Below, piece by piece: positions 3-27,267 of a stretch of 35,068 nt of DNA. The translations under genes and the position numbers were made by a program. Origin of the DNA: Acidobacteriota bacterium (GTDB taxonomy: Bacteria; Acidobacteriota; Terriglobia; Terriglobales; Acidobacteriaceae); NCBI GenBank assembly GCA_003224855.1, contig QHZY01000015.1, forward strand, positions 1 through 35,068. The letters run 5' to 3'. Under the pieces are notes generated by a model that saw nothing but the letters and a program-made list of their open reading frames with translations, searched no databases and was not told the origin of the DNA. Positions within the stretch are counted from its first letter, which is position 1. Each line of letters opens with the position of its first letter.

Positions 3-278
3 TTTTGCGTGGTGAAGGCAATTTCCGACGAAGCCGAATTCGAGATGCCGGGGCTGGAGAGATTCGTTGGGACTGGCGAGGGCGCAGGTTTCAGGCAGTG
101 GAGTTTCGCCGCTTACGTGATGTTCCGGCCCTGGCTATGGGGCCGCGCCTTTCAGCTGGGGTCAGGCAGCGCGAAAGCTGCGCGCGCACTTTGCCGTCAT
201 CTCAGCGCACTGGCCCGCTGTGCGCGGAACGAAACCGTGCCCCGCAGCGTTGATCTGGCGATGAGGACCAAGTGTTGA
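3..278 (+). CDS. hpnG: HpnG-like hopanoid-associated nucleosidase/phosphorylase, C-terminal part
   Basis: The reading frame is open to the left edge, so only about the last 90 residues are present. The fragment begins with a VKAISDEAEFEMP stretch, which matches the conserved 'KAISDEA' segment of the purine nucleoside phosphorylase/MTA-SAH nucleosidase fold. It is followed by RPWLWGRAFQLG and SAKAARALCRHL, the basic and aromatic tail I associate with hopanoid-associated phosphorylases. In known pathways HpnG removes adenine from adenosylhopane to give (phospho)ribosylhopane. The position fits: it runs into a hopanoid operon on the same strand, 182 bases before the first dehydrogenase. No second gene is visible in that gap. 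Identification rests on a short tail plus context, so another nucleoside phosphorylase-like protein remains possible. Confidence 0.68.
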   Translation, partial: FCVVKAISDEAEFEMPGLERFVGTGEGAGFRQWSFAAYVMFRPWLWGRAFQLGSGSAKAARALCRHLSALARCARNETVPRSVDLAMRTKC

Positions 279-460
279 GTTCAAATTGCACAAAGTCCCA
301 GATCCTGGTTGTACTCGCGGGGCTGAGCTTTGCCCAGCCGCAAGCTAAGCGGCTGATGGTGGAAAGCTTCCGCAAAGGGTCAACCCATATCGCGGAACGC
401 ACGCATGCAGGTCGAGGTCAAGCTCACAAATTCCAGCCCGAACCAGGCGAGCACTACTAG

Positions 461-1579
461 ATGGCTACCGCGCGCGAGATCGAACCGCAAGACAGGTCGT
501 TCAGAATTCCCGCAACCATGCAGGCCGCAGTGTATCGGGGATTGAACGATGTGCGCCTGGAAATGGTTCCAGTGCCTGAGATCGGGCCGGGAGAGATTCT
601 GGTGCGGGTCCACACCTGCGGCATCTGCGGCACTGACCTGAAGAAAATTTCTACCGGATCGCACTCCGCTCCGCGCATTTTCGGACATGAGACTTCCGGG
701 GTAGTGGCGGCCGTCGGGCAGGGCGTCAGCAATTTTGCTGCGGGCGATCGAGTGATGGTGTTTCATCACATACCGTGCGGGAATTGCTACTACTGCGAGC
801 ACAAAACTTTTGCGCAATGCCAGACCTACAAGAAAGTAGGCTGCACGGCAGGTTTCGAAGCTGCCGGCGGAGGGTTCGCAGAATACGTCCGGGTGATGGA
901 TTGGATTGTGAATGCGGGCACGGTGCGCATCCCGCATAATGTCTCGTTTGAGCAGGCCTGCTTCGTTGAACCCGTAAACACCTGCATGAAGGGAATCGAG
1001 TGTTTGCGGTTGCAGGCCGGCGAATCGGTTCTAGTGATAGGTCAGGGACCGATCGGCATCATGTTGGCAACATTGGCTCAAAGGGCTGGAGCCGATGTGA
1101 CCACTTCCGATTTGTATCGGGAGAGGCTTACAATATCAGCAACCTTCGGTTTGCGAAATTCTGTGGATGCTTCGCGTGACGACGTAGTACAGCGCGTGCG
1201 GGAACAAACGGATGGACGTGGAGCCGACGTCGCCATTCTGGCTGTCAACGGAAACAACCTGATTCGCACTGCGATGGATTCAGTTCGGCCGGGAGGTCGA
1301 GTGCTGCTTTTTGCGCAGACCGCGCGTGGCGAAGCCACCATAGATCCGGCCGCGATTTGCGTAGATGAGAAGACGTTGTTGGGGTCGTACAGCGCGTCGG
1401 TTGAGTTACAGGATCAGTCGGTGCGGTTGGTGATGGATCGTGAAATCGAGTTGGACCGGCTGATCAGCCATCGTTTTCCGCTGTCGCGCTGCGTGGAAGG
1501 TCTGAATCTGGCTGCCCATCCTAAACCTGACTCGATGAAGATAGTGATTCAGCCGGGTAGCTCGTGGGAAGGAATTTAA
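461..1579 (+). CDS. Zinc-dependent medium-chain dehydrogenase (MDR family), first of a pair
   Basis: A 372-residue zinc alcohol/polyol dehydrogenase of the medium-chain (MDR) superfamily. The GroES-like domain has the catalytic-zinc motif CGICGTD near residue 50, GHE near residue 75, and a four-cysteine structural-zinc loop (PCGNCYYCEHKTFAQC). A Rossmann domain follows with the GQGPIG turn. Closest relatives in appearance are threonine/sorbitol dehydrogenase-type enzymes that oxidise or reduce a secondary alcohol with NAD(P). The substrate cannot be read from the sequence. It sits between an HpnG-like gene and hpnC and abuts the next dehydrogenase without a gap, so a role in hopanoid side-chain chemistry is a reasonable inference. 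The start is uncertain: an ATG at 518 would begin at the conserved MQAAVYRG and neither site has a strong Shine-Dalgarno. Confidence 0.88.
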   Translation: MATAREIEPQDRSFRIPATMQAAVYRGLNDVRLEMVPVPEIGPGEILVRVHTCGICGTDLKKISTGSHSAPRIFGHETSGVVAAVGQGVSNFAAGDRVMVFHHIPCGNCYYCEHKTFAQCQTYKKVGCTAGFEAAGGGFAEYVRVMDWIVNAGTVRIPHNVSFEQACFVEPVNTCMKGIECLRLQAGESVLVIGQGPIGIMLATLAQRAGADVTTSDLYRERLTISATFGLRNSVDASRDDVVQRVREQTDGRGADVAILAVNGNNLIRTAMDSVRPGGRVLLFAQTARGEATIDPAAICVDEKTLLGSYSASVELQDQSVRLVMDREIELDRLISHRFPLSRCVEGLNLAAHPKPDSMKIVIQPGSSWEGI

Positions 1580-2629
1580 GTGAACGGAAAGATGACCGCT
1601 GCCGTCCTCTACGGTAAAGAGGACGTGAAAATCGAAAAAGTCCCGATCCCGCGCGTGGGTGAGGGTGAAGTACTGGTGAAGGTACAGGTAGCACTGACTT
1701 GCGGAACCGATCTGAAAGTTTATCAGCGCGGATACCACGCGCGCATGATCGTGCCCCCCGCATTGTTCGGCCATGAACTGGCAGGTGTTATCGAGGAAAT
1801 CGGGCCGGGAGTTCGGGGCTTCAAGCGCGGCATGCGAGTGGTTGCGCTGAATTCCGCGCCTTGTCAGATGTGCTTTTACTGCTCGAAGCACCAGGAGAAC
1901 CTGTGCGAAGACCTGTTGTTCAACAACGGCGCCTACGCTGAATACATTCGCGTGCCCCGGCGCATTGTTGAAACCAACATGCTGGCTGTTCCTCCTGATG
2001 TGAGCTATGAAGAGGCCGCGATGGTGGAACCGCTGGCCTGTGTGCTGCGCGGACTGCATGAGACGGAAGTTGAAATTGGCGACACGGTTACGGTTGTGGG
2101 GGGCGGTCCGATTGGCCTGATGTTCATGCAGGTCGCCAAAGCCATCGGCTGTAACGTGATTGCGGTGGTGAAGCGTGATTCGCAGGTGGCTGCGGCCAAG
2201 CGCATGGGGGCCCACGAAGCCGTGCAAATCACCAAAGTAAGCGACCCGGTAGAGGCGGTGCGCATGCTGACCACCGGGCGCCGCGGGTCCGACGTTGTGA
2301 TCGAAGCGGTTGGCCGCTCGGAAGCCTGGGAGTGGGCCATTGACATGGTGCGTAAAGGCGGAACGGTAAACTTTTTCGGTGGTTGCGCCAGCGGCACCAA
2401 AGTGCAACTCGACACCAATCGCCTTCATTACTCTGAGATAACTCTGAAGGCGACTTTCCATCACACGCCGGAAACAGTTCGCCGGGCGTTCGGGCTTATT
2501 TCCGAAAAGAAGATCCGCTCGAATGACTACATTACCGGAGAGGCGCCGCTTTCCCGGCTGACGCAGGTTTTGCGGCACATGCTGAACCGGAACGGCGACA
2601 TCAAGACCGCCATAATTCCCGGACATTGA
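1580..2629 (+). CDS. Zinc-dependent medium-chain dehydrogenase (MDR family), second of a pair
   Basis: A 349-residue MDR dehydrogenase paralogous to its upstream neighbour. It has a catalytic-zinc TCGTD motif near residue 42, GHE near residue 65, a CQMCFYCSKHQENLC structural-zinc loop, and the nucleotide-binding GGGPIG turn near residue 172. The GTG start directly follows the stop of the first dehydrogenase and is preceded by GGAAGGA at good spacing; an ATG at 1592 is the alternative. The zero-base junction implies translational coupling and possibly joint function of the two products. HpnC follows after 45 bases, so all belong to one probable transcription unit. The substrate is unknown; a sugar, cyclitol or ribosyl/aldehyde group on the hopanoid side chain is inferred from context only. 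Confidence 0.88.
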   Translation: MNGKMTAAVLYGKEDVKIEKVPIPRVGEGEVLVKVQVALTCGTDLKVYQRGYHARMIVPPALFGHELAGVIEEIGPGVRGFKRGMRVVALNSAPCQMCFYCSKHQENLCEDLLFNNGAYAEYIRVPRRIVETNMLAVPPDVSYEEAAMVEPLACVLRGLHETEVEIGDTVTVVGGGPIGLMFMQVAKAIGCNVIAVVKRDSQVAAAKRMGAHEAVQITKVSDPVEAVRMLTTGRRGSDVVIEAVGRSEAWEWAIDMVRKGGTVNFFGGCASGTKVQLDTNRLHYSEITLKATFHHTPETVRRAFGLISEKKIRSNDYITGEAPLSRLTQVLRHMLNRNGDIKTAIIPGH

Positions 2630-2674: not shown

Positions 2675-3601
2675 ATGAACACAGCTGTTACCGCCGACTC
2701 GCAATCGCCCTGGCGAACTCTGCCGGGCGAATACGCTATTCCTGAACATCCGCCAACTCTGGCAGAAGCTCGCGAGTATTGCCGGCGCTTGGCGCGCACC
2801 CACTACGAAAACTTTTCCGTAGCCACCTGGTTCCTGCCGCGTCATTTACGGCAGCACTTTTACAACGTGTACGCTTATTGCCGGATCTCGGACGATCTGG
2901 GCGATGAAACCAACAATCCAGCCGCTTCTCTTCAGTTATTGAGTGAGTGGGAAGCCGAGCTGGATGCGTGCTACACGGGACATTCTCGCCATCCGGTGTT
3001 TGTCGCTCTCTCTGAGACCATCAAGCAATTCGATATCCCCAAAGGACCATTCGCCGATTTGTTGAAAGCTTTTCGGCAGGACCAGACTGTTACCCGCTAC
3101 CCGACCTTCAACGACCTGCTCGGATACTGCGAGAACTCCGCTAATCCCGTAGGCCGGCTGGTGCTCTATGTCTGCGGTTATCGCGATCCTGAGCGCCAGG
3201 CATTGTCAGACTTTACCTGCACCGCGCTTCAGCTCGCGAACTTCTGGCAGGACGTCAGTGCTGACTGGAACAAGGGCCGCATCTATGTGCCGTTGGAGGA
3301 CCTGCGCCGGTTTGGGGTCAGCGAACAGGACATTGCGGAGTCCCGTAACAGCGAACCATTTCGCGAGATGATGAAATTTGAAGTAAAGCGCGCGCGCGAG
3401 TGGTTCCGGCAGGGGCTGCCGCTAATTAAGAGTGTTGACCGCTCACTGGCGCTGGACATTGAACTGTTCAGCCGTGGCGGTCAGGAAATTCTGAATGCGA
3501 TTGAAGCTCAGGGTTTCGTGGTGCTTGGGAGACGTCCATCAATCTCCAGGCGCCGCAAGCTGTACCTGGCGGCTGGTGCGGCGTTAAGGAATATGTTGTG
3601 A
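2675..3601 (+). CDS. hpnC: Hydroxysqualene synthase HpnC
   Basis: A 308-residue trans-isoprenyl diphosphate synthase of the squalene/phytoene synthase family. The first aspartate-rich motif reads CRISDDLGDE (about residues 69-78). The second reads NFWQDVSADWNKGR (about 189-202), matching the HpnC pattern 'LANFWQDV..D...GR'. In the three-step route HpnC converts presqualene diphosphate, made by HpnD, to hydroxysqualene. The gene overlaps hpnD by four bases (GTGA), so the two are translationally coupled. Order hpnC-hpnD-hpnE is the standard bacterial arrangement, which separates it from phytoene synthase. The ATG has a GAGGCGA upstream at rather long spacing. Confidence 0.95.
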   Translation: MNTAVTADSQSPWRTLPGEYAIPEHPPTLAEAREYCRRLARTHYENFSVATWFLPRHLRQHFYNVYAYCRISDDLGDETNNPAASLQLLSEWEAELDACYTGHSRHPVFVALSETIKQFDIPKGPFADLLKAFRQDQTVTRYPTFNDLLGYCENSANPVGRLVLYVCGYRDPERQALSDFTCTALQLANFWQDVSADWNKGRIYVPLEDLRRFGVSEQDIAESRNSEPFREMMKFEVKRAREWFRQGLPLIKSVDRSLALDIELFSRGGQEILNAIEAQGFVVLGRRPSISRRRKLYLAAGAALRNML

Positions 3602-4533
3602 ATGTCGCGGTAGAACCGGTCGCGGGCAGCTTTTCTCCCAGCTCTTCGCAGCTGGCGCTGGCTTATTCGGTGTGCCGCGGCATGGCCCGCGCCGCCGCCA
3701 AAAACTTTTATTATGCGTTCATGGTCCTGCCTCGTCCGAAGCGTCGCGCGTTATGTGCGGTGTATGCCTACATGCGGCATTGCGATGACATCAGCGATGA
3801 CGCCCTGATAATGGCGGACCTGCGGCGCCAGCGGCTGTCCGAATGGCTGGAAGCAACTCACAGAGCCTTTGCCGGCCAGCCTACCGATGATCCCATTCTG
3901 CTCGCGCTTACCGATACCCGGCGGAATTTTTCGATTCCGGTGGAACTGTTCGATGAGCTTGCCTACGGCACCGCCATGGACCTGCAGGTTACCCCGGACA
4001 CATCCGCCGCGGGCGATCCGGTGGTTTACTACCGCACGTTCGAGGATCTCCGGGTTTACTGCTATCGCGTCGCTTCCGTCGTGGGCCTGGTTTGCATACG
4101 CATCTTTGGGTACCGGGATAAGGCGGCGGAACGCTTTGCCGAGGATTTGGGAATCGCTTTCCAGCTCACTAACATTATTCGTGATGTGCGCGAAGACGCC
4201 GCCATGAGGCGGGTTTATATTCCTGCCGAAGAGCTCAAGCAATTTGAAATTGCCCCGCGCGATCTCATGTCTCCCAACATGCCGGTGCGCCTGCGATGGC
4301 TACTGGCAGCGGAAGCAGACCGCGCTCGTGGCTTTTATGCGGCCGCCGGAGAACTCATGGAATTGATTGACGAAGACAGTCAGCCGGCGCTCTGGGTACT
4401 GGTAACTATCTATCGCGGCCTGCTGGAGCGGATCGCGGCGCGCGAGTACGACGTGTACGGACCGAAGATCCGTCTAACCACCCGCGAGAAATTTCTAATT
4501 CTGGGAAAGGGTCTGTTGAAACGGATTGTCTGA
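3598..4533 (+). CDS. hpnD: Presqualene diphosphate synthase HpnD
   Basis: A 311-residue squalene/phytoene synthase family protein. The first aspartate motif is HCDDISDD (about residues 61-68). The second is TNIIRDVRED (about 191-200), followed by RVYIP; this is the classic DxxED form, typical of HpnD and phytoene synthase. HpnD condenses two farnesyl diphosphates head-to-head to presqualene diphosphate on the cytoplasmic membrane face. The GTG start overlaps the hpnC stop, and its own stop overlaps the hpnE ATG by one base (TGATG). The tight coupling of all three genes fits a metabolon passing hydrophobic intermediates. About 20 extra residues precede the first conserved helix. Confidence 0.95.
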   Translation: MNVAVEPVAGSFSPSSSQLALAYSVCRGMARAAAKNFYYAFMVLPRPKRRALCAVYAYMRHCDDISDDALIMADLRRQRLSEWLEATHRAFAGQPTDDPILLALTDTRRNFSIPVELFDELAYGTAMDLQVTPDTSAAGDPVVYYRTFEDLRVYCYRVASVVGLVCIRIFGYRDKAAERFAEDLGIAFQLTNIIRDVREDAAMRRVYIPAEELKQFEIAPRDLMSPNMPVRLRWLLAAEADRARGFYAAAGELMELIDEDSQPALWVLVTIYRGLLERIAAREYDVYGPKIRLTTREKFLILGKGLLKRIV

Positions 4534-5969
4534 TGGCCCAGCGCTGGTCACAAACACATTGGACCGATAGCCCACGGGTGGCGGTGGTGGGAGGCGGATT
4601 GGCAGGACTGGCGGCCGGCTGCGCGCTGGCCGAGAGCGGATTCCGCGTCTCGTTATTTGAGCGCCGGCCGTACCTGGGGGGCCGCGCCTCCTCCTATCTA
4701 CACCCTGCAACCGGCGAAGTCGTGGATAACTGCCAGCACGTTTTGCTGGGGTGCTGCACCAATTTACTGGAATTCTATCGGCGCACCGGAATTGATGATC
4801 AGATACGCTGGTTCGATCGCATGACCTTCCTCGAGCCCGGCGGACGTGCCTCTGTGATCGGGCCTTCCTCTCTGCCGGCACCGCTGCACGCTGCGCCCTC
4901 ATTCCTGGGCGCGGCCTGCCTTAATCTGACCGATAAACTAGGCATCGCTGCGGCCATGGCGAAACTTGCTCCGCTGACGCCTTACGACAAGGGGGAACCG
5001 TTCCTTGACTGGCTTCGCCGCCATGGCCAGACTGACCGCGCGATCGGACGTTTCTGGCGCACTATTCTGGTGAGCGCGCTGAACGAAGACATCGATTGCA
5101 TCTCTGTACCGTATGCAGCCCAGGTGATGCGAGAATCGTTTCTGAAATCCGCTGATGCGGGGAGAATGGGTATTCCGACTGCGCCGCTTACTGAGTTGTA
5201 CGACAAAGCCGGAGAATACGTCCGTGAACGGGGCGGAGAAGTTCACGTGCGATACGGCGTCGACGGGTTCCAGGCAGGGCCGGCGGGAGTGAAGCTGCGC
5301 TCCGGCAACCAAGAAGCTGATTTCGACTTTGTAATTCTGGCTCTTCCCTTTGATGGACTCTCAAGGATTCTGCCGGAAACCACCGCGGCTGACCCGTTGA
5401 GAAATGCGCTCTCTCATTTTCAGAGTTCTCCGATCACCGGCATCCACTTGTGGTTTGATCGCCAGATCAGCGATCTGGAACACGCCGTGTTACTCGACCG
5501 CACTATTCAATGGATGTTCCATAAATCAAAACTGCTGGCCGGACGCAACGGGCACAGCCGGAGTGGTGCAAGTGAGGGCAGCTATGTGGAAGTTGTGGTC
5601 AGTTCCTCCAAGTCGCTGGTTGAAACATCGCGGGCAGAGGTGGTGGAACTCGCGCTGAAAGAACTGTCAGAATTTTTTCCAGCGGTGCGCGATGCGGTGC
5701 TGCTGAAATCCACCGTGATCAAGGAAGTGCACGCAACTTACTCGCCCCGTCCCGGGGTGGACGAATACCGCCCTGCTCCGGAAACTGTCTGGCCGCGGGT
5801 TTTCCTGGCCGGCGACTGGATCGCCACTGGATGGCCTGCAACTATGGAGGGCGCAGTTCGCAGCGGGTATCTCGCAGCCCAGTGCGTGGCTCGCGCCGCC
5901 GGTCAAAAGACCGCGGCATTTCTGGTTCCTGATCTTCCGGCTTCAGGGTTTATGCGGTTGTTCGGATAA
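4533..5969 (+). CDS. hpnE: Hydroxysqualene dehydroxylase HpnE
   Basis: A 478-residue FAD-dependent amine-oxidase/phytoene-desaturase-like protein. The N-terminal dinucleotide-binding motif is VVGGGLAGLAAG (about residues 18-29), followed by FERRPYLGGRASS. The C-terminal FAD-contact segment is VFLAGDWIATGWPATMEGAV (about 431-450). HpnE reductively removes the hydroxyl of hydroxysqualene to give squalene, completing the HpnCDE route. This protein is about 10% longer than many homologues, with a short insertion around residues 335-350 rich in Ser and Gly. The stop lies four bases from the stop of the converging minus-strand transporter gene, so there is no room for a conventional terminator between them. 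Confidence 0.94.
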   Translation: MAQRWSQTHWTDSPRVAVVGGGLAGLAAGCALAESGFRVSLFERRPYLGGRASSYLHPATGEVVDNCQHVLLGCCTNLLEFYRRTGIDDQIRWFDRMTFLEPGGRASVIGPSSLPAPLHAAPSFLGAACLNLTDKLGIAAAMAKLAPLTPYDKGEPFLDWLRRHGQTDRAIGRFWRTILVSALNEDIDCISVPYAAQVMRESFLKSADAGRMGIPTAPLTELYDKAGEYVRERGGEVHVRYGVDGFQAGPAGVKLRSGNQEADFDFVILALPFDGLSRILPETTAADPLRNALSHFQSSPITGIHLWFDRQISDLEHAVLLDRTIQWMFHKSKLLAGRNGHSRSGASEGSYVEVVVSSSKSLVETSRAEVVELALKELSEFFPAVRDAVLLKSTVIKEVHATYSPRPGVDEYRPAPETVWPRVFLAGDWIATGWPATMEGAVRSGYLAAQCVARAAGQKTAAFLVPDLPASGFMRLFG

Positions 5970-5973
5970 ACTT

Positions 5974-6354
5974 TCAGCCCGCCAGCAGAGCCACTCCGGC
6001 AGCCACAAACAGGGCCGCTGTCCAGCGGCGGTGATCCACACGCTCGTGCAGAAAGAATCGTGCGGCAGCGGCATTGGCTACGAATGTCAGCGAAGCGGAA
6101 GCCGGGCCCACCAGGCTTACATCGGCCCACGACAACGCGAACAGCAAGCTATAAAATCCCACCGCCATCATGACAACACCAAGCGGAAAACTAGGGGTGC
6201 GCAATATTCGGGAAGCGACCGTCCATAGACAGGTTCTGCGCCACAGTTCTCCCACGTCACCTACTTGCTTCATGGCACGCGCCAGCAGAATGTCACCGGT
6301 GGTGGAAGCCAGCACAACCACTGCAATGGCGCCCCAGGTATATGCGTGTTTCAT
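5974..6354 (-). CDS. Small four-helix EamA/SMR-like membrane protein, second of a pair
   Basis: A 126-residue protein that is almost entirely hydrophobic, with four predicted helices at about residues 6-24, 51-70, 75-95 and 104-124. It ends in the HERVDHRRWTAALFVAAGVALL pattern typical of the last helix of EamA/DMT and small multidrug resistance (SMR) proteins. The ATG at 6354 overlaps the stop of the upstream paralogue (ATGA). A longer frame opening at 6486 only shadows the upstream gene. Half-size DMT proteins encoded as an overlapping pair usually form heterodimers, as in ArnE/ArnF, which move lipid-linked aminoarabinose. Its place directly after hpnJ suggests it handles a hopanoid or lipid-linked precursor. 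That role is inferred; drug or metabolite export is the alternative. Confidence 0.82.
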   Translation of the reverse strand: MKHAYTWGAIAVVVLASTTGDILLARAMKQVGDVGELWRRTCLWTVASRILRTPSFPLGVVMMAVGFYSLLFALSWADVSLVGPASASLTFVANAAAARFFLHERVDHRRWTAALFVAAGVALLAG

Positions 6355-6794
6355 TGCCGTGCACCCGGAAGAGCAGGTTCCGATTCTTTGAATCCGGCTG
6401 TCGGACTGTGCTGAGCCTGGGGTGTTAAAGCCGGCCCCTGAGTCACAAAGCCTACGCCGGAAGAGATCAGCAGTATCCCAAACCATCGCATGGGCGTGAT
6501 TTGTTCATGCAGCCAGAAGCGGGCGATGACGGCCAGGAGTACGTAACCCAGAGAACTTGCAGGCAGTACGTAGGTAAGATCAGCCCAGGAAAGTGCGGTG
6601 GTGTATGAGACAAAGAAGAACAGCAGGAAAACAATGCCCAGCGCCACCCAGGGATTGAATACTGCTGTGAGCACGCTGCTCCAGTGATTCAGCGAAATGC
6701 TGCCGACTTCCTTCATGCCATGAGAAAGAAGGGAATCACCCAGGGCGGCAAAGAGGGTAATGCCACCTAACACCAGATACTTGCGGAAGGTCAC
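6351..6794 (-). CDS. Small four-helix EamA/SMR-like membrane protein, first of a pair
   Basis: A 147-residue protein with four predicted helices at about residues 6-22, 48-69, 73-93 and 103-120. It carries the LSWADLTYVLPASSLGYVLL and WLHEQITPMRWFGILLISSG signatures of EamA/DMT half-transporters. A polar tail of about 25 residues, rich in Pro, Gln and Ser, follows the last helix and is absent in its partner. It starts with GTG, preceded by AGGAAG, 12 bases after the hpnJ stop, so it is probably cotranscribed with hpnJ. Its stop overlaps the start of the second half-transporter. Unequal size and sequence of the two suggest an obligate heterodimer with antiparallel or asymmetric topology. Confidence 0.82.
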   Translation of the reverse strand: MTFRKYLVLGGITLFAALGDSLLSHGMKEVGSISLNHWSSVLTAVFNPWVALGIVFLLFFFVSYTTALSWADLTYVLPASSLGYVLLAVIARFWLHEQITPMRWFGILLISSGVGFVTQGPALTPQAQHSPTAGFKESEPALPGARQ

Positions 6795-6806: not shown

Positions 6807-8300
6807 CTACGCCCCCGCCGGTTCAGCCGTGGCCGCCGACTCTTGCTTACTCCGTTTGTCCTTCACCCATTTGTGCCGCATGGCTCGGACTTTAAGGAAA
6901 GCTCTGGCTTCCCTGTAGAGACGTTTGCGGTCATCCCCGTTAAAAGCCGCTTTTTTGAGAATGCGGAAAATCGCCTTGGGCCTGAAGTAATATTCGTCGT
7001 AAAAGTGGTGGACTGAGTCGAGGATTTCGTCTGCCGGCAACCCGGGATATTGGATGTGAGCCAGTTGATGGCCGCCCTCATCCACCATGTTGGTATCGGC
7101 CACAATGAAGCCGTTCTTCACCGCATAGTCATAGAGCTCGGTACCCGGATACGCGTGCGCCACCGAGACCTGGATGGTCTCAACATCCAACTCCTTCGCG
7201 AAGTTGATGGTGTTGCGGATGGTTTCGCGTGTTTCTCCGGGCAGACCCAGAATAAAGTCGCCATGAACGACCAATCCAAGCCTGTGGCAATCCTTCGTAA
7301 ACTGGCGGGCACGCTCGATGGTCGCACCTTTTTTGATGTTCTTCAGAATCTGTTGATCGCCTGACTCATAGCCCACGATCAATAGGCGGCATCCCGCTTC
7401 TTTCATCGCTTTGAGCGTCTCAAAATCGGTGGTGACGCGAGAAGTGCATGACCAGGTCAGGTTCAGCGGCTTCAGCTTCGAGCAGAGCTCAACCGTTCGT
7501 GCCTTCTGAATATTGAACGTGTCATCATCAAAGAAGAACTCTTTTACGTGCGGCCAATATTCTTTGGCTTTGGCCATCTCGCGTGCCACGTCATCGGAAG
7601 AGCGCTTGCGCCACGGATGTCCGCTCAGGGTCTGCGGCCACAAACAAAACGTGCACTGCGCCGGGCAGCCGCGAGTTGTGTAAAGCGAAACGTATGGATA
7701 CAGCAGGAACGGCACGTTATAACGACTCACATCCAGGTCGCGTCGGTAAACGTCGGTGACATGCGGCAGTGCGTCAAGGTCCTGAATCTGTGGGCGATCG
7801 GGCGTGTGCACCACCTGTCCGTTCTTCAGATAAGAAATACCCACAATCTCTTCCAACGGCTTGCCCTGCGCGAATTCGACAATCTGCCCATCGAACTCCT
7901 TGCGGCAGATGAAGTCGATAGCATCGCAGTCGCGCAGCGACCTTTCCGGCAACACGGTTACGTGCGGCCCGACGAAGGCGATCTTGATGCGGGGATTCGC
8001 TTCCTTTATCTTCTGCGCCAGCCGGATGTCGCCGGGAAATCCGGGGGTGCTGGTAAACAACACCAGAAACTCGTAATCTCTTGCTATGTCAATGGTCTGC
8101 TGTGCCGAAACGTGGTGCGACGGCGCATCCAGCAGCCGCGAACCTTCCAGCATCCCAGCCGGATAGGCCAGCCACACCGGATACCAGTATGATTCAATCT
8201 CGCGGGTCGCAGGCCACCGTGAGCCGGCTCCGCCATCAAAGTTTTCAAACGACGGAGGGTTCAACAACAAGGTTTTTAAGGGCATATGTGTGAAGCTCAA
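6807..8300 (-). CDS. hpnJ: Hopanoid-associated B12-binding radical SAM protein HpnJ
   Basis: A 497-residue protein. The N-terminal B12-binding-like domain begins KTLLLNPPSFENFDGGAGSR, closely like known HpnJ proteins, and spans about 160 residues. The radical SAM core has the CxxxCxxC cluster motif in RGCPAQCTFCLWPQ (about residues 211-224), followed by EFFFDDDTFN and GYESGDQQIL. HpnJ takes part in forming the cyclitol-ether head group of composite bacteriohopanepolyols, in the pathway that uses HpnI and HpnK; neither partner gene is in this window. The TTG start at 8300 is chosen because GGAGGT stands seven bases upstream. The ATG at 8285 matches family N-termini but is 22 bases from that site. 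The two small membrane proteins follow closely. Confidence 0.92.
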   Translation of the reverse strand: MSFTHMPLKTLLLNPPSFENFDGGAGSRWPATREIESYWYPVWLAYPAGMLEGSRLLDAPSHHVSAQQTIDIARDYEFLVLFTSTPGFPGDIRLAQKIKEANPRIKIAFVGPHVTVLPERSLRDCDAIDFICRKEFDGQIVEFAQGKPLEEIVGISYLKNGQVVHTPDRPQIQDLDALPHVTDVYRRDLDVSRYNVPFLLYPYVSLYTTRGCPAQCTFCLWPQTLSGHPWRKRSSDDVAREMAKAKEYWPHVKEFFFDDDTFNIQKARTVELCSKLKPLNLTWSCTSRVTTDFETLKAMKEAGCRLLIVGYESGDQQILKNIKKGATIERARQFTKDCHRLGLVVHGDFILGLPGETRETIRNTINFAKELDVETIQVSVAHAYPGTELYDYAVKNGFIVADTNMVDEGGHQLAHIQYPGLPADEILDSVHHFYDEYYFRPKAIFRILKKAAFNGDDRKRLYREARAFLKVRAMRHKWVKDKRSKQESAATAEPAGA

Positions 8301-8307
8301 GTTTAAC

Positions 8308-8313
8308 ACCTCC
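8308..8313 (-). promoter_or_regulatory. Shine-Dalgarno that decides the hpnJ start
   Basis: GGAGGT on the minus strand lies seven bases before the TTG at 8300 and 22 bases before the ATG at 8285. Spacing favours the TTG, which adds five residues before the conserved MPLKTLLL. Confidence 0.55.
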
Positions 8314-26289: not shown

Positions 26290-27267
26290 ATGCCCAAGTA
26301 TTCGATTGTGGTTCCTCTGCATAATGAGCAGGAGAACGTGACGGATCTCTATGACCGCCTGAAGGCTGTCATGGAGATGAATTCGGAGAGCTTCGAACTG
26401 GTGCTGGTGGACGATGGTTCCACCGATCGCACCTTCTATATGCTGCGCGAAATCGCGGCCGTGGACAGCCGCGTCACGGTAGTCAAGTTGCGTCGAAACT
26501 TCGGGCAAACCTCGGCGCTGGCCGCCGGGTTTGATCACACTCGGGGCGAATACATAATTGCCATGGATGGCGACCTGCAGCACGACCCGGCCGACATTCC
26601 GATCTTCCTCGAAAAAATTGCCGAGGGTTATGACATCGTCAGCGGCTGGCGCAAACGCCGGATCGATAATTTCTGGCTGCGCCGCATTCCTTCGCGCTGC
26701 GCCAATTGGCTCATGGCGAAGCTCAGCGGCGTCGATATCCACGACTTCGGCACGACGTTCAAGGCTTATCGCCGCGAGATCATCGAGCAGGTTCCGTTAT
26801 ATGGGGAGCTGCACCGCTTCATCCCGGCGCTGGCATCGTGGCATGGAGCCTCAATTTGCGAAGTGCCCATTCGCAACGTGAACCGCGAGCGCGGTGCCTC
26901 GCACTACGGCATCTCGCGCACTTTCCGCGTCTTCTTTGACCTGATCACCATCCGTTTCCTGCTGCGCTATCTCTCGCGCCCGCTGCACTTTTTCGGGACC
27001 GTCGGCATGATCAGTATTATGAGCGGGTCCGCGCTGGCGTTCTGGCTTTTAATGGAAAAGTTCTTGCGCCACGCATCCATCATGACGGCGCACGGCCCCG
27101 CCATGATGACCGCTTTTGGCCTGCTGCTGGGTGGTCTTCAGATGCTGGCGTTCGGATTGTTAGGCGAGATGCAGGTGCGCCACTATCACGAGCCTACCCG
27201 TCGCGCCCCGTACTCCGTTGATCGGATACTGCGCGCCCAAAGCGAAGAGCAGAACGTTTCGGAGTAG
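26290..27267 (+). CDS. GtrB/DPM-type polyprenyl-phosphate glycosyltransferase, family 2
   Basis: A 325-residue GT2 enzyme. The GT-A domain begins YSIVVPLHNEQENV and shows VDDGSTD near residue 41-47 and MDGDLQHDPADIP near residue 93-105. FGTTFKAYRREII and FIPALASW follow, both conserved in GtrB/dolichol-phosphate-mannose synthase-like enzymes. Two transmembrane helices lie at about residues 235-258 and 273-296, as in GtrB. Such enzymes move a sugar from a nucleotide to undecaprenyl phosphate on the inner face of the membrane. The acceptor and sugar are inferred from the family. No flippase or acceptor transferase gene is next to it. It is divergent from the amidase and converges with the CoA-transferase, 14 bases between stops. 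Confidence 0.9.
   Translation: MPKYSIVVPLHNEQENVTDLYDRLKAVMEMNSESFELVLVDDGSTDRTFYMLREIAAVDSRVTVVKLRRNFGQTSALAAGFDHTRGEYIIAMDGDLQHDPADIPIFLEKIAEGYDIVSGWRKRRIDNFWLRRIPSRCANWLMAKLSGVDIHDFGTTFKAYRREIIEQVPLYGELHRFIPALASWHGASICEVPIRNVNRERGASHYGISRTFRVFFDLITIRFLLRYLSRPLHFFGTVGMISIMSGSALAFWLLMEKFLRHASIMTAHGPAMMTAFGLLLGGLQMLAFGLLGEMQVRHYHEPTRRAPYSVDRILRAQSEEQNVSE

Follow-up and report, generated by a model that had tools for sequence, protein, structure and literature searches.

Gene content of the locus

The window, that is, the whole stretch of 35,068 nucleotides of acidobacterial DNA analysed here, is a single contig (C145) of a 3.7 Mb assembly comprising 274 contigs. It opens within a hopanoid (hpn) operon: the 3' end of hpnG is followed by a short open reading frame, two genes for MDR dehydrogenases, here termed MDR1 and MDR2, and the genes hpnC, hpnD and hpnE (Table 1). 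The terminal stretch of a second contig from this genome (G000:C177:24161-25579) carries hpnA together with the 5' portion of hpnG that complements the 3' end found here. The two dehydrogenase genes abut with a gap of 0 bases, their zinc motifs are intact and MDR2 terminates 45 bases before hpnC, as described in an earlier note on this DNA. That note had also placed the pair directly after an HpnG-like tail: the tail is indeed present upstream, but the spacing between hpnG and MDR1 amounts to 182 bases that harbour the 61-codon reading frame. In 17 relatives this place is occupied by an intact gene for the ~177-residue secreted protein (for example L010:8328-8861).

Table 1. Features of the window, with positions counted from its first nucleotide
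Feature	Position	Strand	Remarks
hpnG 3' end (adenosylhopane phosphorylase-like)	3-278	+	39% identity over 57 aa to a relative's HpnG
61-codon ORF, remnant of a secreted ~177-aa protein of unknown function	275-460	+	resembles the start of the relatives' protein
MDR1, zinc MDR dehydrogenase, predicted NAD-type (Asp217), 372 aa	461-1579	+	intact ORF; TAA at 1577-1579
MDR2, zinc MDR dehydrogenase, predicted NADP-type (Lys198-Arg199, no acidic residue), 349 aa	1580-2629	+	intact ORF; GTG at 1580
hpnC	2675-3601	+	TIGR03464, 347.6 bits (cut-off 250.45)
hpnD	3598-4533	+	TIGR03465, 244.2 bits, just under cut-off 278.6
hpnE	4533-5969	+	TIGR03467, 466.4 bits (cut-off 283.05)
Small EamA/DMT-type membrane protein	5974-6486	-	
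Small EamA/DMT-type membrane protein	6351-6794	-	
hpnJ, cyclitol head-group radical SAM enzyme	6807-8309	-	TIGR03471, 786.8 bits (cut-off 577.6)
ArnC-like polyprenyl-phosphate glycosyltransferase	26290-27267	+	199 bits to NF007986 (cut-off 529); away from the hpn genes

The two overlapping genes for EamA/DMT-type proteins lie beside hpnJ, and homologs accompany hpnI, hpnJ and hpnK in other families (L174, L181, L187). The arrangement points to a flippase of the ArnE/ArnF kind that would act on hopanoids bearing sugars.

Two zinc dehydrogenases with opposite cofactor signatures

MDR1 and MDR2 are paralogs, about 33-35% identical, and both match the ADH_N and ADH_zinc_N domains. The catalytic zinc ligands (C56/H76/E77/E170 in MDR1; C41/H65/E66/E150 in MDR2) and the structural cysteines (C106/109/112/120 and C95/98/101/109, respectively) do not vary among the aligned relatives, and the zinc residues are also kept in further loci from the window's class (25/25 for MDR1, 25-27/27 for MDR2). 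AlphaFold models of the two proteins are confident (pLDDT 93.7 and 91.0), display the two-domain MDR fold and match sorbitol, threonine, butanediol and related dehydrogenases in Foldseek (E about 1e-33). By domain content, zinc sites and fold, MDR1 and MDR2 are zinc MDR dehydrogenases of the polyol/threonine type. Assignment to a named family through curated models was discarded: every equivalog score falls far under its cut-off, the best being that of L-threonine 3-dehydrogenase (TIGR00692; 167.3 and 167.9 bits against 458). A match to the HpnZ model was likewise set aside, the name being phosphonate-associated and not hopanoid-related.

A Rossmann-fold enzyme that lacks the carboxylate ending the second strand, and has basic residues beside that position, usually uses NADP. 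This carboxylate binds the cofactor ribose (PMC4777477). Asp217 of MDR1, which closes the second strand of the nucleotide-binding domain, is conserved in 92/93 orthologs; MDR2 orthologs feature Lys-Arg at the cofactor position in 96 of 101 cases and almost never an acid. The class loci follow the same rule, with Asp in all 25 MDR1 proteins and a basic residue (Lys or Arg) at position 198 of all 27 MDR2 proteins. These residues point to an NAD-type MDR1 and an NADP-type MDR2, and the split is conserved.

The pair is under strong constraint. As dS is saturated, dN alone, and not dN/dS, is usable as a measure: among six genes of the locus MDR2 shows the lowest values (0.05-0.10), followed by HpnJ (0.07-0.12), with MDR1, HpnC, HpnD and HpnE ranging between 0.14 and 0.34. 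Pairwise distances of MDR1 and of MDR2 each correlate with those of HpnA (r = 0.91), which is expected under joint descent, although shared ancestry alone also gives high r.

Phylogenetically, the two proteins form two clades, and the sister group of each includes members of other tandem pairs located outside hpn loci. The same NAD/NADP split is displayed by the unlinked sister pairs of three genomes (G051, G063, G132), not by that of a fourth (G078), and a related tandem pair is present in genomes devoid of hopanoid genes (G078, G132). Since the sister clades hold unlinked pairs with the same split, the two-enzyme unit may be older than its position in the hopanoid operon. No common pathway emerged from the neighbours of the unlinked sister pairs that were examined. 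The closest plasmid homolog of MDR2, from Rhodococcus opacus (45.6%), is accompanied by genes for an FGGY kinase, a DeoR regulator and a class II aldolase, a combination reminiscent of sugar-alcohol metabolism, and MDR1-like proteins adjoin aldolase genes in the two places inspected. These neighbourhoods fit polyol or sugar substrates for MDR1 and MDR2.

Conservation of the locus across Acidobacteriota

A scan of 84,980 species genomes retrieved 80 loci with an MDR2 that is 82-93% identical to that of the window, all in Acidobacteriota. Where the flanks are readable, MDR1 lies directly upstream (71/71), hpnG is found upstream in 54/64, and hpnC and hpnE are located downstream in 73/76 and 59/59, respectively. 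Because this set consists of close relatives, wider samples were used: 149 genomes drawn evenly from the phylum and 111 genomes of the window's class. The ortholog and co-occurrence searches cover Acidobacteriota genomes, and some absences may be assembly gaps.

In the phylum sample, MDR1 orthologs occur in 20 genomes and MDR2 in those 20 and one more. HpnA scores above its cut-off in 20/20 MDR1 genomes and HpnH is present in 19/20; the association with HpnA extends outside the window's own family (6/6 MDR1 genomes versus 14/128, p 5e-6). The class sample shows the same trend: MDR1 is found in 67 genomes and HpnH in 81, and the two coincide in 66 (Fisher p 1.4e-14). The sole MDR1 genome without hpnH derives from an assembly that is 81% complete. 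In 43 of the 66 genomes with both genes, spread over six families, MDR1 is encoded on the same strand as hpnH and 1.6-4.1 kb downstream of it.

The order hpnA-hpnG-MDR1-MDR2 is common to all 25 MDR1 loci fetched from the class, which represent seven families (f1, f64, f65, f66, f67, f68, f73), and hpnC comes next in 21 of the 24 with that side readable. The arrangement is mostly ispA-shc-(hpnH)-hpnA-hpnG-MDR1-MDR2-hpnC-hpnD-hpnE; hpnH is part of it in families f1, f65, f67, f68 and f73, where MDR1 is 46-71% identical to that of the window. A genome of another family (G095), placed no more closely than in the same phylum, exhibits a closely similar order. The linkage of both genes to hpnG and hpnC, for which the earlier note had asked, is thus conserved over many families; its absence from relatives would have spoken against a hopanoid role.

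Deviations from the canonical arrangement

Three genomes of family f69 (G154, G182, G188) harbour hpnA-hpnG-MDR2-hpnC, with MDR1 missing in between and an MDR2 bearing the NADP signature; a search for MDR1 elsewhere in these genomes found none at E 1e-90. As f69 keeps MDR2 without MDR1, MDR2 is the member retained when one is lost. Seven members of the window's family have MDR1 and MDR2 far apart (G036, G049, G061, G094, G103, G112, G147). In the two that were mapped, MDR1 resides with shc-hpnH-hpnA-hpnG and MDR2 with hpnC-hpnD-hpnE.

Family f27 (L192, L193, L194, L195) presents the order ispA-hpnA-MDR1-MDR2-hpnD, an operon without recognisable hpnG, and the only match in the HpnC search is the HpnD-like gene beside MDR1-MDR2. 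The f27 genomes without hpnG in the operon nevertheless carry hpnH or shc. In one further genome (G066) the pair is located away from the hpn genes. The notion of a strict tie of the pair to squalene synthesis is weakened by f27, with its HpnD-like gene only, and by G066.

The pair is absent altogether from 15/35 hpnH genomes of the phylum sample, most of which retain shc-hpnH-hpnA-hpnG; many hpnH genomes outside the class and family f70 within it show this reduced core. HpnA above its cut-off accompanies HpnH in 33/35 genomes, with one genome containing HpnA only, which strongly indicates that HpnA is important for the side chain. The idea that the pair substitutes for HpnA is ruled out by the presence of HpnA in 20/20 MDR1 genomes of the phylum sample. 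Since many hpnH lineages are devoid of the pair, it supplements HpnA in some lineages of the phylum and is not a universal step.

Other variations were encountered in individual genomes. One (G007) contains hpnH and hpnJ and is devoid of hpnA, hpnG, MDR1, MDR2 and hpnC; transposase-like reading frames occupy the place where hpnA would begin (L196:9045-10081) and the contig ends about 0.6 kb later. Another (G089), which does not carry the MDR pair, has a gene for an F420-type LLM oxidoreductase after hpnG (L183:7746-8648, minus strand), followed by a PLP decarboxylase; the oxidoreductase is possibly another solution for the reductase step. Furthermore, one type of hpnH is followed by a gene termed ug3 (L010:6042-6428; also L211, L246, L253), whose product of ~130-146 residues matches nothing in Pfam or NCBIfam. 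This HpnH type is 75-86% alike across families and, in several genomes that have no hpnH in the operon, is encoded outside it, as if hpnH were exchanged between lineages.

A probable role in side-chain synthesis

Hopanoids are sterol-like membrane lipids of bacteria; bacteriohopanetetrol (BHT) is a widespread member and the source of geological hopane biomarkers. Cell extracts are known to reduce ribosylhopane to BHT (Bodlenner et al. 2015, as cited in PMC12583986); as of November 2025 no enzyme had been assigned to this reaction (PMC12583986).

The observations themselves concern the order of the genes, their co-occurrence, the intact zinc sites, the cofactor-type residues and the constraint. 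It appears probable that the MDR pair takes part in making bacteriohopanepolyols at all. The pair would belong to the section of the operon devoted to the C35 side chain. HpnH attaches 5'-deoxyadenosine to diploptene, and HpnG strips off the adenine to leave ribosylhopane, whose open form is a sugar aldehyde carried by a lipid. A zinc dehydrogenase, most likely MDR2 with NADPH, would then convert the open-chain aldehyde into BHT; MDR1 may be an NAD-linked dehydrogenase with an accessory task on the same polyol chain, where it would, for instance, oxidize a hydroxyl to a ketone or work in the reverse direction.

We tentatively propose MDR2 as the NADPH-dependent ribosylhopane reductase of this lineage, a role for which we infer substrate, direction and cofactor. 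A zinc dehydrogenase of sugar type and predicted NADP type that is fixed beside hpnG and kept alone in f69 is the best fit for this task; MDR1, of predicted NAD type and dispensable in f69, is more likely oxidizing or accessory. Counted against this role of MDR2 are its separation from hpnG in several genomes, where it remains with hpnC, the tighter association of HpnH with HpnA, also an oxidoreductase-family protein, and the related pair in genomes without hopanoid genes. Enzymes of this MDR type, moreover, mostly act on secondary alcohols, and ribosylhopane requires reduction of a terminal aldehyde. Linkage to and co-occurrence with hpnH and hpnG, as would be expected of a ribosylhopane reductase, are both found for the pair; presence in all BHT-making genomes is not, given the 15/35 hpnH genomes mentioned above, and Chloracidobacterium thermophilum produces BHT without ug2 (PMC5462960), the published counterpart of MDR2 (see below). 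A lineage-specific reductase is still compatible with this distribution. The interpretation in the earlier note is partly supported. Its side-chain role survives a stringent test, with linkage to hpnA, hpnG and hpnC conserved and MDR1 confined almost entirely to genomes with hpnH. The pair cannot be the missing reductase in general, because hpnH lineages without it are numerous.

A rather doubtful alternative is that HpnA is the ribosylhopane reductase phylum-wide and the MDR pair performs lineage-specific tailoring of the finished polyol chain. HpnA does track HpnH, including in lineages where shc-hpnH-hpnA-hpnG is the whole core and the pair is absent; yet hpnA is dispensable for BHT in Burkholderia cenocepacia according to evidence cited in PMC5462960, is missing from 6/48 hpnH Alphaproteobacteria (PMC12583986) and, at a score above cut-off, from one genome that has hpnH and hpnG (G059). 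It is unlikely that MDR1 with NAD oxidizes a side-chain hydroxyl to a ketone that MDR2 with NADPH reduces from the other face, generating an epimeric polyol, for example 34R. Secondary-alcohol chemistry is typical for this MDR type, and the cofactor split is conserved in orthologs, in class loci and in most unlinked sister pairs. Such an inversion sits uneasily, however, with the retention of MDR2 without MDR1 in f69 and with the separation of the two genes in seven f1 genomes, and stereoisomer data for Terriglobia were not found in the literature. Improbable, too, is the combined scheme in which MDR2 is the NADPH-dependent ribosylhopane reductase and MDR1 carries out an NAD-linked oxidation, resulting in a keto- or epimerised bacteriohopanepolyol in Terriglobia and related Acidobacteriota; if true, this would be a lipid overlooked so far in surveys.

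Paralogous tandem pairs in genomes without hopanoid genes and plasmid homologs in sugar clusters raise the question of whether MDR1 and MDR2 are general sugar-alcohol dehydrogenases without a hopanoid substrate, sharing the operon by chance or for regulation. This is quite improbable: the pair occupies the same slot over many families, is strongly constrained and is nearly absent from hpnH-negative genomes of the class. Least probable of all, to a degree that makes it very unlikely, is a function in the sugar or cyclitol head group built by HpnI, HpnJ and HpnK, as the earlier note had also contemplated. Although hpnJ lies 4 kb away in the window, on the other strand, co-occurrence with hpnJ and hpnK fails: outside the window's own family hpnJ is present in only 1/6 MDR1 genomes (p 0.24), and within it curated hpnK is absent from 14/14.

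The last side-chain step of BHT has no assigned gene (PMC12583986), and the pair offers candidates for it. With a dehydrogenase fixed between hpnG and hpnC in many families, the list is short and headed by MDR2, followed by HpnA and then MDR1. A lipid marker for a major group of soil bacteria would also be predicted if the pair alters stereochemistry or oxidation state.

Comparison with known systems

MDR1 and MDR2 share domains, fold (TM 0.76-0.90) and both zinc sites with the sorbitol/threonine-dehydrogenase branch (1e3j, 1pl6, 2dfv, 4ej6, 4cpd), but they are only about 25-30% identical to its members and form two clades of their own. The NADP(H)-dependent ketose reductase 1e3j is among the closest solved sequences to MDR2, and both are devoid of an acidic residue at the NAD position; whereas 1e3j acts on fructose/sorbitol, the His-His of MDR2 (294-295) is aligned with its Phe-Arg-Tyr. 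HpnA (TIGR03466), an NAD(P)-binding oxidoreductase-family protein encoded beside hpnG, was proposed for the same step in 2017. In contrast to the MDR pair, it belongs to the short-chain dehydrogenase superfamily and is present in almost all hpnH Acidobacteriota, including those without the pair.

The nearest precedent is provided by ug1 and ug2, 'unknown genes' of acidobacterial hopanoid clusters to which no function was assigned (Sinninghe Damste et al. 2017; PMC5462960). In that work ug2 is a Zn-binding alcohol dehydrogenase of ca. 350 residues before hpnC, and ug1 follows hpnA-hpnG; MDR1 and MDR2 occupy exactly those two places. MDR2 is ug2, and MDR1, matched by position only, is probably ug1. 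The clusters of the split-pair genomes correspond to cluster C (with ug1) and cluster A (with ug2) of that paper, which gives no paralogy and whose text is silent on the ug1 product. New with respect to it are the recognition of the two as paralogs of seemingly opposite cofactor type, their place in the operon core of many families, the loss of MDR1 with MDR2 kept in f69, and the independence of the pair from hpnJ and hpnK.
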